35,418 nucleotides of DNA from positions 1-35,418 of the forward strand of contig WHTG01000007.1 in the NCBI GenBank assembly GCA_009377835.1. Reading direction: 5' to 3'. Of the stretch, positions 4,505-10,162 are shown one piece after another. A program made the translations under genes and the position numbers. This stretch comes from Nitriliruptorales bacterium (GTDB taxonomy: Bacteria; Actinomycetota; Nitriliruptoria; Euzebyales; Egibacteraceae). Position 1 is the stretch's first letter. Every line of letters begins with the position of its first letter. The notes under the pieces were generated by a model. The model ran no database searches, was not told where the DNA came from, and was given only the letters and a program-made list of their open reading frames with translations.

Positions 4505-5287
4505 TTGCTGGCGGTAAAGAACCTCGAGGTCGTGTACGACGACGTGATCCTCGTCCTGCGAGGGATCAGTATCGAGGTGCCCGAGGGGAAGATCGTGGCC
4601 CTGCTCGGAGCGAACGGCGCGGGGAAGACGACGTTGTTGCGCGCGCTGTCCGGACTTCTCGGCGTCCACGAGGGCGACATCACCAAGGGTGAAATCACCC
4701 TCGACGGGAAACCGATCCACAGGCGTTCACCCGCACAGATCGTCGGGCTGGGAATCAAGCAGGTGCTGGAGGGCCGTCGCGTGTTTGCGGAGTTCAACGT
4801 CGAGGAGAACCTGCGCGTCGGGGCCCACACCAACGCACGGGCCGCGAAGCACAACATGGAACGTGTATTCGCCCTCTTCCCCGTGCTGAAGGACCGCCGC
4901 AAGGCAACCGCGGGTTACCTGTCAGGCGGTGAGCAGCAGATGCTCGCGATGGCGCGGGCGCTGATGTCGGAGCCGCGCTACCTGCTGCTGGACGAACCGA
5001 GCCTTGGTCTCGCCCCGCTGCTGGTCCAGCAGATCCGCGATCTGATCGTCGAGATCAACCGCGCCGGAACCACCGTCCTGCTGGTCGAGCAGAACGCGAA
5101 CATGGCGTTGTCCATCGCCGAACGCGGCTACGTGATGGAGACCGGCAAGATCGTGATGGACAAACCAGCCGCCGAGTTGCTCGATGACGAGGACGTCAAG
5201 GAGTTCTACCTGGGGCTGGGTGCCGAGGGCGAGAAGTCCTTCCGCGACGTGAAGCACTACAAGCGCCGCAAACGGTGGCTGTCATGA
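4505..5287 (+). CDS. livF: Liv-type ABC importer ATP-binding protein (LivF family)
   Basis: One of two ATPases that drive a branched-chain-amino-acid-type (HAAT family) ABC importer at the inner face of the membrane. The 260-residue protein has Walker A GANGAGKTT (35-43), the signature SGGEQQ (140-145), Walker B ending in Asp163-Glu164 (LLLDEPSLG) and an H-loop position occupied by Gln in VEQNA, as is usual in LivF. A basic tail (KHYKRRKRW) follows the domain. The start is TTG with a good ribosome site. The gene opens an operon of six genes. Its last codons and stop form the first copy of a 34-bp tandem repeat that separates it from livG. The substrate need not be an amino acid, because an acyl-CoA synthetase gene sits in the operon. 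Confidence 0.92.
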   Translation: MLAVKNLEVVYDDVILVLRGISIEVPEGKIVALLGANGAGKTTLLRALSGLLGVHEGDITKGEITLDGKPIHRRSPAQIVGLGIKQVLEGRRVFAEFNVEENLRVGAHTNARAAKHNMERVFALFPVLKDRRKATAGYLSGGEQQMLAMARALMSEPRYLLLDEPSLGLAPLLVQQIRDLIVEINRAGTTVLLVEQNANMALSIAERGYVMETGKIVMDKPAAELLDDEDVKEFYLGLGAEGEKSFRDVKHYKRRKRWLS

Positions 5288-5395
5288 GCCGTCAAGCAGC
5301 CGCAAACGGTGGCTGTCATGAGCCGTCAAGCAGCCGCAAACGGTGGCTGTCATGAGCCGTCAAGCAGCCGCAGGCGGTGCGGCGTTGTCATGAGC
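5267..5395 (+). repeat. 34-bp tandem repeat, 3 perfect copies plus 1 degenerate
   Basis: Three identical 34-bp units occupy 5267-5300, 5301-5334 and 5335-5368. A diverged copy follows from 5369 and runs into the livG start, with four extra bases before its TCATGAGC. Each unit carries the end of the livF reading frame (CGCAAACGGTGGCTGTCATGAGC in 5' part, split here: CGCAAACGGTGG then CTGTCATGAGC), so each contains an ATGA stop/start overlap. Perfect identity of the three copies indicates recent expansion by slippage or unequal recombination. There are no spacers, so it is not a CRISPR array. Confidence 0.95.
5284..5393 (+). other. Chain of two ATGA-linked mini-ORFs leading to livG
   Basis: The livF stop (TGA 5285-5287) overlaps an ATG at 5284. 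That ATG opens a 23-codon frame that stops at TGA 5353-5355. This stop overlaps an ATG at 5352, which opens a 13-codon frame that stops at TGA 5391-5393 and overlaps the livG ATG at 5390. A ribosome that terminates and re-initiates at each ATGA would therefore pass from livF to livG. The ATG of the middle copy (5318) is instead in frame with livG. The frames are seen; that they are translated is inferred. Confidence 0.45.
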
Positions 5396-6268
5396 GACGC
5401 ATTCGCCGAGGCGCTGCAGGAGACGCTTGCCGAGGTCGCCCAGGACCGGCCCGTGCTGGAGTTTGACGACGTGGAGCTCAGCTTCGCGGGTGTGAAGGCG
5501 CTCGGCGGCGTCACGTTCGAGGTCCGCCCAAAGGAACTGTTCGCGATCATCGGTCCCAACGGCGCCGGCAAGACGTCGATCTTCAACGTCATTTCCGGCG
5601 TGTACCGGCCGCAGAAGGGTTCGGTGCGGTTTCTCGGGGAGCCGATCCTGGGCAAGCAGCCTCATGAAATCGCAGCTATGGGGCTGTCGCGCACGTTCCA
5701 GAACATCGAGCTGTTCGAGAACCTCACGGTGATCGACAACCTGATGCTGGGACGACATCAGCACGTGCGCTACGGCGTGTTCTCCGCGCTGGTGTACGCG
5801 GGACGTGCCAGAGGCGAAGAGGTCGTGCACCGCGGGGTGGTCGAGGACATCATCGACTTCCTGGAGATCGAGCAGTACCGGAAGTTCCCCGTGGGCCTGC
5901 TCCCCTACGGCATCCAGAAGCGGGTGGAGCTGGGACGTGCGCTGGCGCTGGAGCCCAAGCTCCTGCTCCTGGACGAACCGGTCGCCGGGATGAACCTGGA
6001 GGAGACCGAGGACATGGCGCGCTTCATCCTCGACATCCGTGACGAACTGGACATCGCCATGATCCTCGTCGAGCACGACATGGGTCTGGTGATGGACCTC
6101 GCCGACCGGGTCCTCGTGCAGGACTTCGGGCTTGCCATCGCGACAGGAGCGCCCAGCGAGATCCAGCGCAACCCAGATGTCATCCGCGCCTACCTGGGCG
6201 AGGAACACAGATCGTCCGTGGGCGTCACGGCCACCGCGCGGGACAGAGCAACCGGAGACACGCCATGA
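5390..6268 (+). CDS. livG: Liv-type ABC importer ATP-binding protein (LivG family)
   Basis: Second ATPase of the importer, pairing with LivF. With the ATG at 5390 the protein has 292 residues. Walker A is GPNGAGKTS (55-63); the signature is the LivG-type LPYGIQKR in place of LSGGQ; Walker B is LLLLDEPVAGMN; the H-loop His is in LVEHDMG. In-frame starts at 5309 (GTG) and 5318 (ATG) would add 27 or 24 residues, but those residues come from the tandem repeat and are not family-like, so 5390 is preferred. The sequence before 5390 has no strong ribosome site, which fits re-initiation from the upstream mini-ORF. The 3' end overlaps the next gene by four bases (ATGA at 6265-6268). The N-terminal 20 residues before the ATPase core are acidic and slightly longer than in typical LivG. 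Confidence 0.9.
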   Translation: MSDAFAEALQETLAEVAQDRPVLEFDDVELSFAGVKALGGVTFEVRPKELFAIIGPNGAGKTSIFNVISGVYRPQKGSVRFLGEPILGKQPHEIAAMGLSRTFQNIELFENLTVIDNLMLGRHQHVRYGVFSALVYAGRARGEEVVHRGVVEDIIDFLEIEQYRKFPVGLLPYGIQKRVELGRALALEPKLLLLDEPVAGMNLEETEDMARFILDIRDELDIAMILVEHDMGLVMDLADRVLVQDFGLAIATGAPSEIQRNPDVIRAYLGEEHRSSVGVTATARDRATGDTP

Positions 6269-8130
6269 CCACGACGCTCCAACCCCCCGCGCCTCCTGCC
6301 ACGAAGAGCGTCCCGGGCAGGATCCGTGACAGAGCGAGCCGCGCAGGCGACCGTGTCGCGTTGCGGGAGAAGGACTTCGGCATCTGGCAGGACATCACGT
6401 GGGGCCAGTACTGGGACACCATCGTGACGGTCGGTCACGGCCTGCTGGCGCTGGGCGTGAAGGTCGGAGACCGCGTCGCGATCCAGTCCGAGAACCGACC
6501 TGAGTGGCTGATCACCGACATGGCGACCGTCGCGGTGCGCGCCGTTACGATGGGGCTGTACCCGACCAACCCGGTCGCGGAGGTTCGGTACCTGCTGGAG
6601 AACTCCGACTCGACGATCCTGCTCGCCGAGGACCAGGAACAGGTCGACAAGGCACTGGCGGTTGTGGACCAGCTGCCGAGGCTCGAGAAGATCATCTACA
6701 TCGAGCCACGGGGCGTTCGCCGGCGGTACACCGACCCGCGGTTGCTGTACTGGGACGACTTCCTGGATCTCGGACGGCAGCATCGCAGCGCCGCCGACGG
6801 CGCGGTCGAGCGTTGCATGGCCGAGGCGACTCCCGACGACATCGTCGCCCTCATCTACACCTCCGGCACCACGGGGCCGCCAAAGGGCGCGATGCTCTCG
6901 GCGGCGAACGTCGAGTTCGCGATCCGGACGCTCGTCGAGGAAGGCGGGTTCACCGATCCCCCACCGACGGATACCGACGTCACGCTGTCCTACCTGCCTC
7001 TGTCGCACGTCGCCGAGCGCATCTTCACCACCTGGTTCAACGCGTCTGCGGGACAGCTGGTGCACTTCGCCGAGTCGATCGAAACGGTTCCGCAGAACCT
7101 CAAGGAGGTGCAGCCGACCATCTTCTTCGGCGTCCCGCGCATCTGGGAGAAGATCCACGCGACGGTCGAGATCCGTGTCGCCTCCGCCACCAGGTTGAAG
7201 CGCTGGAACTACCGGTTCTGGATGCGCGTCGCCTCGCGGATCGGCGAGAAAATGGTCGCCAACGGGGGTCGCCACACCGCATCGACCCGGCTGCTCTCGG
7301 CCATCGGCAACGTGTTCCTGTTCCGCGCCCTGAAGGATCGCATCGGACTGCGCAAGTGCCGGTATGCCGCGTCCGGGGCGGCACCCATCGCACCTGAGGT
7401 CCTCAAGTGGTTCATGGGGATCGGCGTGCCGATGCACGAGGTCTACGGAATGACGGAGAACACTGCCGTCGCCACCGCGAACCGCCCGGGGTCCATCAAG
7501 CTCGGGACGGTCGGCGAGCCCTATCCCACGATCGAACTGCGGATCGACGACGACACCGGCGAGATCCTCACCCGGCATCCCGGTGTGTTCCCGGGATACT
7601 GGCAGAACGACGAGGCGACGCGAAAGACGATCGACGCCGACGGGTGGCTGCACACCGGAGACGTCGGCGAGTGGGTCGACGGGACGCATGTCAAGATCAC
7701 CGACCGTCTCAAGGACATCATCATCACCGCGGGCGGCAAGAACATCTCGCCGTCGGAGATCGAGAACTCGCTCAAGACGTCGCCGTTCGTCAAGGAAGCC
7801 ATCGTCATCGGCGACCGTCGCCCGTACCTGGTGGCGCTGATCGGCATCGAACTCGACACGGTCGGCGACTGGGCGACCCGCAGGCGCATCCCCTTCACCA
7901 CCTACCGGGACCTGTCGAACAAGCCTGAGGTCGTCAAACTCGTCCAGGGCGTCGTCGAGGACACGAACACCAAGTTCGCCTCCGTCGAGACCATCAAGAA
8001 GTTCCGGATGCTCCCGAAGGAACTCGACCACGAAGACGGTGAACTGACGGCCACGCAGAAGGTCAAGCGAGCCGCGATGGCCGAGATGTTCGGCGATCTG
8101 GTCGAGGAGATGTACCGGAGCCGATCGTGA
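6265..8130 (+). CDS. Long-chain acyl-CoA synthetase (AMP-forming)
   Basis: An adenylate-forming enzyme that activates a carboxylic acid, probably a fatty or aryl acid, to its CoA thioester. The 621-residue product has the P-loop-like motif YTSGTTGPPKG (198-208), YGMTEN in the acid-binding region, GWLHTGDVGEW and the C-terminal hinge KDIIITAGGKNISPSEIE with its catalytic-lysine domain. Length and motifs match the FadD15/FACL group of actinobacteria. It overlaps livG by four bases (ATGA) and the permease gene by four bases (GTGA), so it is translated as part of the importer operon. This suggests vectorial uptake, with the imported acid trapped by CoA ligation. Chain length and whether the acid is aliphatic or aromatic cannot be told from the sequence. 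Confidence 0.92.
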   Translation: MTTTLQPPAPPATKSVPGRIRDRASRAGDRVALREKDFGIWQDITWGQYWDTIVTVGHGLLALGVKVGDRVAIQSENRPEWLITDMATVAVRAVTMGLYPTNPVAEVRYLLENSDSTILLAEDQEQVDKALAVVDQLPRLEKIIYIEPRGVRRRYTDPRLLYWDDFLDLGRQHRSAADGAVERCMAEATPDDIVALIYTSGTTGPPKGAMLSAANVEFAIRTLVEEGGFTDPPPTDTDVTLSYLPLSHVAERIFTTWFNASAGQLVHFAESIETVPQNLKEVQPTIFFGVPRIWEKIHATVEIRVASATRLKRWNYRFWMRVASRIGEKMVANGGRHTASTRLLSAIGNVFLFRALKDRIGLRKCRYAASGAAPIAPEVLKWFMGIGVPMHEVYGMTENTAVATANRPGSIKLGTVGEPYPTIELRIDDDTGEILTRHPGVFPGYWQNDEATRKTIDADGWLHTGDVGEWVDGTHVKITDRLKDIIITAGGKNISPSEIENSLKTSPFVKEAIVIGDRRPYLVALIGIELDTVGDWATRRRIPFTTYRDLSNKPEVVKLVQGVVEDTNTKFASVETIKKFRMLPKELDHEDGELTATQKVKRAAMAEMFGDLVEEMYRSRS

Positions 8131-9020
8131 CGGATTTTCTCCAGGCCCTGATCAGCGGCCTTGGTGTCGGCTCCATTTATGCCCTGCTGGCGGTCGGCTT
8201 CGTCATCATCTACAAGTCGATGCAGGTGATCAGCTTCGCGCAACCGGCGCTGCTGGTCACCGGAGCCGTCATGGTCTCGTACCTGCGGTTCGACTTCGGC
8301 CTGAACTTCTGGATCGCGCTGCCGCTGGCGATGGTGCTGACGGCGCTGCTGGCGCTGGTCATCGAGCGCCTCGCGCTGCGCCCGATGATCGGCAAGCCCG
8401 TCTTCGTCGTCGCGATCATCACGATCGGTGTCGACATCGCCGTGCGCGTCGTGGTCAACCGCTTCATCGGCCTCGGGGCGCGGCAGGTCGGAGACCCCTG
8501 GGGGCTGACGATCCGGCGGCTCGGCGCGGTGGTCGTCCAGGAGCGGTACCTGTGGATGATGCTGATCACGGCCGTCGTCGTCAGCCTGCTGTTCGCGTTC
8601 TTCAAGTACTCCCGCGTCGGACTGGCGATGCGCGCCGCCGCCTTCGACCAGGAGACTGCTCTGGCGCAGGGGATCTCCGTAGGTCAGGTATTCGCGCTCA
8701 GCTGGGCGATCGCCGGCGCGTTGGCGGCGCTGGCCGGGACGCTTGCCGGGACTCGGGCTGGGATTGACCAGCAGACGTGGGTGCTCGGGCTCAAGGCGCT
8801 TCCGGCCATCATCCTCGGCGGCCTGGACTCGGTCGGCGGCGCCGTCGTCGGAGGTCTGGCGGTGGGGGTCGTCGAGGCGATGGTGTCGCGCTACCAGGGC
8901 GCGTACTTCCCGTGGCTCGGTCAGAACTTCTCGCTGGTCTCCCCGTACGTCCTCATGCTCATCGTCTTGATGATTCGTCCCTACGGCTTGTTCGGGACGC
9001 CTGAGGTGGAGCGCGTATGA
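8127..9020 (+). CDS. livH: Liv-type ABC importer permease (LivH family)
   Basis: An integral membrane channel subunit of the importer. The 297-residue protein begins FLQALISGLGVGSIYALLAV, the typical LivH opening, and has about eight hydrophobic segments. The cytoplasmic coupling loop region MRAAAFDQETALAQGI contacts the ATPases. The C-terminal part GGLDSVGGAVVGGLAVGVVE is also characteristic. The GTG start overlaps the synthetase stop (GTGA 8127-8130), and its own end overlaps the second permease by four bases. Length agrees with the family (about 290-310). Confidence 0.93.
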   Translation: MTDFLQALISGLGVGSIYALLAVGFVIIYKSMQVISFAQPALLVTGAVMVSYLRFDFGLNFWIALPLAMVLTALLALVIERLALRPMIGKPVFVVAIITIGVDIAVRVVVNRFIGLGARQVGDPWGLTIRRLGAVVVQERYLWMMLITAVVVSLLFAFFKYSRVGLAMRAAAFDQETALAQGISVGQVFALSWAIAGALAALAGTLAGTRAGIDQQTWVLGLKALPAIILGGLDSVGGAVVGGLAVGVVEAMVSRYQGAYFPWLGQNFSLVSPYVLMLIVLMIRPYGLFGTPEVERV

Positions 9021-10162
9021 CCGGCGGCAGGACGGCGGGGTCCGCGCGACGCGGCAGGCCCGAGTTGTACACGTCGTACGAGGCCGATTCGGCGTTGCTC
9101 AATACCAGGCCGAAGCGCGTAGCGGTGCTGCTGATCGTGGCGCTGGCTGTCATCGTGCCGTTCCTGCTGACCGACAACGTCCTGTTGATCCTGGCGACGG
9201 CCTTCGTCGCGTCCATCGGTGCGATCGGGCTCAACCTGGTGACCGGGTATGCGGGCCAGGTGTCGCTGGGTCACGCGTTCTTCCTGGGCCTGGGAGCGTT
9301 CACCGGGGCAGTGCTCTCTGGTGATCCCGATGGACGGACGGTCGGGCTCGGCATGCAGTTGCTCGTCTGGCTGCCCGCTGCAGGGCTGGTTGCCGCCGCC
9401 GCGGGCCTGCTCGTCGCGCCCTTCGCCGTGAGGCTGCGTGGGTTGTACCTGGCGATCGTCACCCTGGGGCTGGTGTTTCTCGGAGAGCACCTGTTCCGCG
9501 AGATGCAATTCATCACCGGCGGGGTCGGCGTGGGACGTCCCGGACCGGTCCCCGAGCTGTTCGGATTCCGGTTCGACCAGGCCGGTGAGGTCTTGGGGGT
9601 CATGCTCACGCGCAACCAGAAGATGTACTACCTGATGTTCGTGCTGCTGCTGATCATGGCGGTCGCCGGGCGCAACATCGCCCGCAGCGCGATCGGCCGT
9701 GCCTTCGCCGCAGTTCGCGACCGCGACATCGCGGCGGAGGTCATCGGCGTGCCGCTGACCAAGTACAAGGCGCTGGCATTCACGATCTCGTCGTTCTACG
9801 CAGGGATCGCGGGGGCGCTGCTGTACACCGTGATCGGTGTGATCGAGCCGGGCTCGTTCAACCTGCTCATGAGCGTGCAGTACATCGCGATGGTGCTCAT
9901 CGGCGGGGTCGCGACGATCTCCGGTTCGATCATGGGAGCGGTCTTCATCACGCTGCTCCCCCGCATCACCCGCGAGGTCCCGAAATTCCTGCCGTTCATC
10001 AGCGGCGGCGCAACAGGGGGCGGGATTCTCAACGTGTTCCAGCTCGAAGCCATCCTCTACGGTCTGCTGATCATCGGCTTTCTCATCTTCGAGCCGCGCG
10101 GGCTGTACGGAATCTGGATTCGTACCCGGAACTATTGGAAGGGTTGGCCGTTCTCGTATTGA
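9017..10162 (+). CDS. livM: Liv-type ABC importer permease (LivM family)
   Basis: Second membrane subunit of the importer, forming the heterodimer with LivH. The 381-residue protein has a hydrophilic N-terminus of about 35 residues, then about ten hydrophobic segments. Diagnostic stretches are AIGLNLVTGYAGQVSLGHA (near 75-95) and the coupling loop FAAVRDRDIAAEVIGVPLTK, followed by GGVATISGSIMGAVF. A long loop between the last two membrane segments (LLPRITREVPKFLPFISGG) is common in LivM from actinobacteria. The ATG overlaps the livH stop (ATGA 9017-9020). The next gene follows after 33 bases with its own ribosome site, so the binding protein can be made in excess of the permease. Confidence 0.93.
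   Translation: MTGGRTAGSARRGRPELYTSYEADSALLNTRPKRVAVLLIVALAVIVPFLLTDNVLLILATAFVASIGAIGLNLVTGYAGQVSLGHAFFLGLGAFTGAVLSGDPDGRTVGLGMQLLVWLPAAGLVAAAAGLLVAPFAVRLRGLYLAIVTLGLVFLGEHLFREMQFITGGVGVGRPGPVPELFGFRFDQAGEVLGVMLTRNQKMYYLMFVLLLIMAVAGRNIARSAIGRAFAAVRDRDIAAEVIGVPLTKYKALAFTISSFYAGIAGALLYTVIGVIEPGSFNLLMSVQYIAMVLIGGVATISGSIMGAVFITLLPRITREVPKFLPFISGGATGGGILNVFQLEAILYGLLIIGFLIFEPRGLYGIWIRTRNYWKGWPFSY

Follow-up and report, generated by a model that had tools for sequence, protein, structure and literature searches.

A hairpin element of a dispersed family occupies the livF-livG stop/start overlap of a Nitriliruptorales bacterium and may relay translation across it

The window, by which we mean the whole 35,418-nucleotide stretch of contig WHTG01000007.1 (Nitriliruptorales bacterium, assembly GCA_009377835.1) that was analysed, carries genes for a branched-chain amino acid ABC transporter in the order livF, livG, a gene for an AMP-binding protein, livH and livM (Table 1). 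The three junctions that follow livG are ATGA or GTGA overlaps. Between the livF stop and the livG start lies a gap of 102 nt, which is filled by a tandem array. The preliminary description of this junction reported three perfect 34-bp copies and one diverged copy, an ATGA in every copy, and a chain that leads from the livF stop through 23 and then 13 codons to livG by way of ATGA overlaps. All of this is exact to the base: the ATGA sites are at 5284, 5318, 5352 and 5390, and the diverged copy begins at 5367 and extends into livG. The 106 bases across which re-initiation was proposed to act are the distance from ATG to ATG and not the gap itself, and it was overlooked that ATG5318 lies in the livG frame, as does GTG5309, from which the frame is likewise open to 6268.

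Table 1. Features of the livF-livG junction and the neighbouring genes (positions in the window)
Feature	Position	Strand	Basis
livF, ATPase of a branched-chain amino acid ABC transporter; KHYKRRKRWLS intact at the C-terminus	4505-5287	+	stop TGA 5285-5287
Three perfect 34-bp units, GCCGCAAACGGTGGCTGTCATGAGCCGTCAAGCA	5265-5298, 5299-5332, 5333-5366	+	TRF and sequence letters
TGTCATGAGC, left copy of putative target duplication	5280-5289; also 5314-5323, 5348-5357	+	sequence letters
Mini-ORF 1 (MSRQAAANGGCHEPSSSRKRWLS), 23 codons; its ATG overlaps the stop of livF	5284-5355	+	ATG5284, stop 5353-5355
Hairpin copy, read as chimeric: 5' part element, 3' part livF tail	5285-5316	+	15.5 bits, E 0.0099
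Alternative in-frame livG reading from the ATG of the second unit, 24 extra codons	5318-6268	+	open frame 5309-6268
Second chimeric hairpin copy	5319-5350	+	15.5 bits, E 0.0099
Mini-ORF 2, 13 codons; stop 5391-5393 overlaps livG ATG5390	5352-5393	+	opened by ATG5352
Hairpin element, best-preserved copy (overlaps the previously described diverged copy)	5353-5386	+	28.9 bits, E 3.6e-7 with model R1, from which the window was excluded
TGTCATGAGC, right copy of putative target duplication, contains livG start	5386-5395	+	sequence letters
livG; similarity to LivG of G005 begins at the ATG5390 residue	5390-6268	+	comparison with relatives
AMP-binding (acyl-CoA ligase-like) protein	6265-8130	+	
livH	8127-9020	+	
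livM	9017-10162	+	

TRF reports the array at 5260-5379 with a period of 34, 3.6 copies, 96% matches and a score of 219. Among the nine TRF rows of the window it ranks first, and among 57 rows from 560 kb of the genome sixth, a rank that chance does not explain. The length of the 34-bp unit is 1 mod 3, and the unit holds a single stop across all frames, set in ATGA; consequently, a path to livG was kept in every case when copy numbers from 1 to 7 were simulated, with odd numbers giving a mini-ORF relay and even numbers a 24-codon in-frame extension of LivG. The livG codons directly after the start (5396-5445) form an imperfect 24-bp tandem repeat of their own (TRF score 63).

The insertion site is empty in relatives. 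Alignment of livF-livG junctions among relatives had been suggested as a check on the array; 20 other genomes of the taxonomic family were searched, the junction could be read in seven, and in six of these (G002, G004, G005, G010, G014 and G015) livF and livG overlap directly in a plain NTGA. In the seventh, G018, livG starts 49 nt past the livF stop, behind AGGAG. Direct overlap was also found at nine of the 12 other junctions read in the taxonomic order, and mini-ORFs of 23 and 6 codons, ending exactly at livG, lie between the two genes in G023 and G028, respectively. The relatives read have the LivF C-terminus KHYKRRKRWLS, or one or two changes nearby. G005 and G002, whose sites are empty, contain the target sequence once, as TGTCGTGAGC. 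Their TGTCGTGAGCGACGC corresponds to TGTCATGAGCGACGC at the right end of the array, which identifies the 3' end of the array as the old overlap. Two junctions have features of their own. At L006 (G028) the 6-codon mini-ORF runs from one GTGA to another, the latter preceded by a G-rich site, and the hairpin element described below is lacking; at L012 (G026) the livG start is, by eye, built of about four imperfect 15-bp repeats.

The array belongs to a family of short hairpins dispersed through the genome. TRF on the 560 kb recovered further arrays that share TCAAGCAGC...CGGTA with complementary flanks, and the pattern TCAAGCAGCN{2,9}CGGT matched 52 times in the genome, compared with 6 times for a reversed control; the 27 loci of the pattern that were inspected hold 1 to 4 pattern copies apiece. 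Spacings within the family are mostly short (32-39 bp for 50 of 54). With one genome per species sampled, a search of the class with CGGTAG matched 18 of 66 genomes, with 42 matches in the window's genome and 45 in G050, and controls gave 0 to 2 matches per genome. Across the phylum the core pattern matched 29 of 396 genomes, although 19 of these lie outside the class, where visual inspection finds a resemblance to the element only in G104, G143 and G173 and reversed controls were equally common. Family members also occur at the livF-livG junction of G023, which belongs to another taxonomic family, together with the exact mini-ORF noted above.

The exact 19-base core was further seen in 63 stretches of viral-collection contigs (L333-L395), where at least four complementary arm pairs occur at 64 of 79 sites and the upstream frame is open through the core at several; because of its presence in these contigs, the family may move between lineages. 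Plasmids gave short, weak matches (best E 2e-3), several of them in Rhodobacter relatives. Rfam returned no match over the elements, either at the gathering threshold or at E up to 1. A literature search covering titles and the beginnings of abstracts, with subscription journals largely outside it, found no recognisable description of the family and no paper containing the core strings.

The two arms of the hairpin covary. An outer stem of at least four exact pairs is present at 72 of 88 loci, the window included, compared with 8.3 when arms were re-paired between loci. Covariation was measured on alignment A1, which holds 62 of 86 extracted sites; the other 24 were removed by hand without a fixed rule, and the window's sites were deliberately excluded. 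Compensatory cells numbered 93 versus 35 in shuffles (0/500), and the covariation score was 0.359 versus 0.091 (0/500). Two of the five covariation measures did not exceed the shuffles, namely pairs changed on both sides (5 versus 4.1; 55/500) and pair types (16 versus 15.6; 278/500), and the inner helix hardly varies among the aligned sites. A covariance model found at least 72 matches at E up to 0.001 in the 3.34-Mb genome, a lower bound, as scoring covered 150 of the 4990 first-look candidates. The last copy of the array is the best match in the window (Table 1). The two 15.5-bit copies score weakly and not far above the next match, which is partial (13.4 bits). The array had earlier been taken for a multiplied end of livF. 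The 34-bp units do include livF tail, so part of that account stands, but the array belongs to the hairpin family and is matched by the model.

We therefore favour, with a probability of roughly 0.6, the reading that a short hairpin of this family inserted in an ancestral NTGA overlap of livF and livG and was multiplied by slippage, and that ribosomes are relayed across it through mini-ORFs. A single element would have entered ...GGCTGTCRTGAGCGAC and duplicated the 10-bp TGTCATGAGC, for an insert of 38 nt. The duplication would leave one ATGA to livF and another to livG, with a mini-ORF of 13 codons crossing the element from one to the other. Two units of exactly 34 bp could then have been added by slippage between two GCCGCA motifs, one in the livF tail and one in the element. 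At the ATG that overlaps its stop, a ribosome finishing livF would start again, translate the mini-ORFs in turn and reach livG through one more reinitiation. The operon probably tolerates the insertion, as opposed to using it as a designed regulator.

Judged by its sequence, the dnaK-grpE junction is a second filled/empty comparison for the element. In the window's genome (L243, G000:C132) two element copies lie between dnaK and grpE, and an ORF starts 2 nt after the dnaK stop and ends in the ATGA of grpE. GrpE was located in 14 of 19 relatives, and in none of these 14 was a core found within 450 nt before it (272 nt in one); in the 12 where the end of dnaK was read, grpE starts -1 to 12 nt past the stop in ten and 62 and 71 nt past it in two. 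Two generalizations of this history were considered and not adopted. One was target duplication as a general rule: long flanking direct repeats occur at a minority of single-copy loci, and some of these are undetected array copies; repeats of at least 8 bases were present at 18 of 84 loci versus 1.6 when re-paired, but many of the top rows are missed array copies. The other, that the arms derive from the target, was hinted at by L227 and not borne out at dnaK-grpE.

The form of the relay recurs at other loci of the family. For this survey 35 of the 88 loci were kept, those with short flanks (6 loci), weak coding scores or no co-directed neighbours being excluded; at all 35 the element lies between co-directed genes with an upstream stop nearby, and at 20 a start overlaps that stop. 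A strict path, in which every start lies on a stop, reaches the downstream gene at 14 of these 20 junctions, the window's included, and one- or two-base deletions inside the insert leave 1.9 or 3.0 such paths. Mini-ORFs run across the element at 12 of the 20, and at two more (L316 and L322) there is in-frame reading only, from a start before the element; the path at L315 begins with TTG. Under a loose rule that admits starts within 12 nt of the stop, a path exists at 21 of 35 loci versus 13.2 and 16.9 in the deletion controls, and so only the strict rule discriminates. The binomial tail for the relay at a one-in-three frame chance is 9e-4. The counts overstate the strength of the result, since the 14 loci are partly one subfamily with a fixed length and a shared frame and are thus not independent. 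They come from G027 (5), G023 (4), G000 (3), and G021 and G013 (1 each); the relay is absent from both testable loci of G050. In the viral-collection contigs a relay path was present at four of five overlapping-start loci (controls 1.0 and 1.9), three of them having only the downstream gene's own overlap past an in-frame insertion, and we set this weak case aside.

In E. coli gene pairs, a spacing of +38 nt (almost) abolishes reinitiation (PMC10666635), and on that basis a 102-nt gap should uncouple livG from livF in the absence of a relay. A review also cites studies in which coupling persisted undiminished up to +25 nt, together with a model based on RNA unfolding (PMC12548453). Coupling of livG to livF by the array is plausible.

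How far livG depends on such a relay turns on its own ribosome site. It had been held to lack a strong one, which is doubtful: the last array copy contains AGGCGGTG, one mismatch from AGGAGGTG, at -18 to -11, ending 10 nt before ATG5390. With what we take to be the anti-SD tail, the predicted energy for ATG5390 is -9.4 kcal/mol, close to that for livM (-10.1) and stronger than for the other three array ATGs (-6.2); the strongest tenth of random 20-mers starts at -7.5. The site is thus plausible, though imperfect and badly spaced. Independent initiation of livG at ATG5390 (or ATG5318), with the mini-ORFs as a harmless by-product of target duplication, is accordingly a serious candidate to which we give less than even odds. 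The spaced livG start of G018 and the failure of the loose rule to rise much above its control also suit it, against which stand the long spacing of the site and the strict path preserved at 14 of 20 loci. The proposal of a re-initiation relay thus keeps its architecture, which is present in the window and recurs in strict form, and loses some of its force to the putative ribosome site and to the probable origin of the array as a hairpin insertion. It is also conceivable, though we think it unlikely, that the element works as an RNA, a hairpin bound by protein or the source of a mini-peptide, its placement by start codons reflecting that role. The covarying arms and invariant core are what such a role would leave, as is the orientation of the element with the genes at 28 of the 35 co-directed loci and 13 of the 14 relay loci; among the 39 loci listed, 11 have ATGA exactly 10 nt past the core end. 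Most of the twelve mini-ORF relays read the core in one frame (SSS...), and selection might conceivably keep the peptide, although the window uses two frames. Orientation is reversed at seven loci, the relay at L227 uses the element's other strand, and the patchy occurrence among genomes of the class and the lack of an Rfam match further weigh against a role of this kind.

Two further explanations of the array were weighed. Local tandem duplication alone, taking in the livF tail and the overlap, with CGTCAAGCA as a relic of livF GACGTCAAGCACTACAAG after an 8-nt deletion, accounts for the livF tail sequence in the 34-bp units, whose order and letters fit the tails of relatives, in which GTCAAGCA is common. 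This simple duplication lost its standing once the core was found at many other loci, the livF-livG junction of G023 among them, and the model derived from those loci recognizes the last copy; we regard it as improbable. An assembly artefact is less probable still: the genome is a draft in 318 contigs and several family arrays lie at contig ends, so that copy numbers may be wrong, but the family forms arrays of different period and sequence elsewhere in this genome and in others, and the last copy here is unlike the rest.

Beyond the window, we tentatively entertain, short of an even chance, a broader proposal in which the family is an undescribed mobile hairpin with an invariant core and site-specific complementary arms that spreads by inserting in stop/start overlaps and duplicating them, its body thereby becoming an operon-sparing relay of mini-ORFs. 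The family also suggests how repeats could settle in compact operons and leave them intact. Its junctions, some empty and some filled, form a natural set for testing reinitiation across repeated overlaps, and bear on the question of whether ribosomes scan after termination or can only step to a start that overlaps the stop.

Known systems share parts of this arrangement. As in termination-reinitiation, NTGA overlaps are present at three other junctions of the operon and, ancestrally, between livF and livG, but the livF/livG overlap now occurs in repeated form, with mini-ORFs spanning the array. REP elements, which RAYT (Y1) transposases mobilize, carry GTAG, and the family resembles them in being made of short dispersed hairpins with GTAG near the core end; unlike in REP/RAYT systems, its arms vary by locus. 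We rejected a RAYT as mobilizer, as Y1_Tnp had no match in the eight genomes searched, while 5 of 14 control genomes were positive.

The closest likeness is to the mycobacterial interspersed repetitive units (MIRUs). The preliminary description knew of no described system of this kind, yet the review describes MIRUs with the same logic, as apparently mobile repeats that insert at start codons and contain an internal ORF coupled at -4 nt (PMC12548453). At rnc-fpg1, a MIRU-VNTR locus, the expanded junction measures 279-358 bp, compared with 1 to 20 bp in most of the relatives listed (M. leprae has 54), and the MIRU unit size is given as 40-100 bp (PMC2734929). The senX3-regX3 MIRUs are described from M. 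leprae and the M. tuberculosis complex only, with promoter activity reported in the repeat region (PMC4213456); promoter activity in the livF-livG array is a further possibility. Like MIRUs, the hairpin family is dispersed and tandem, lies between genes, and is inserted at stop/start overlaps with an internal ORF that, here as read from the letters, would be coupled (12 of 20 loci, plus the two in-frame cases). In contrast to MIRUs, its periods are mostly 32-39 bp, outside 40-100 bp, and it has an invariant core with locus-specific complementary arms and is found in another lineage. Coupling through an inserted repeat has therefore been described in kind, and a covarying hairpin family that does so appears to be new within the literature searched. 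The feature in the window works like a MIRU but is not classed as one, being set apart by its unit size and by the lineage from which MIRUs are described.
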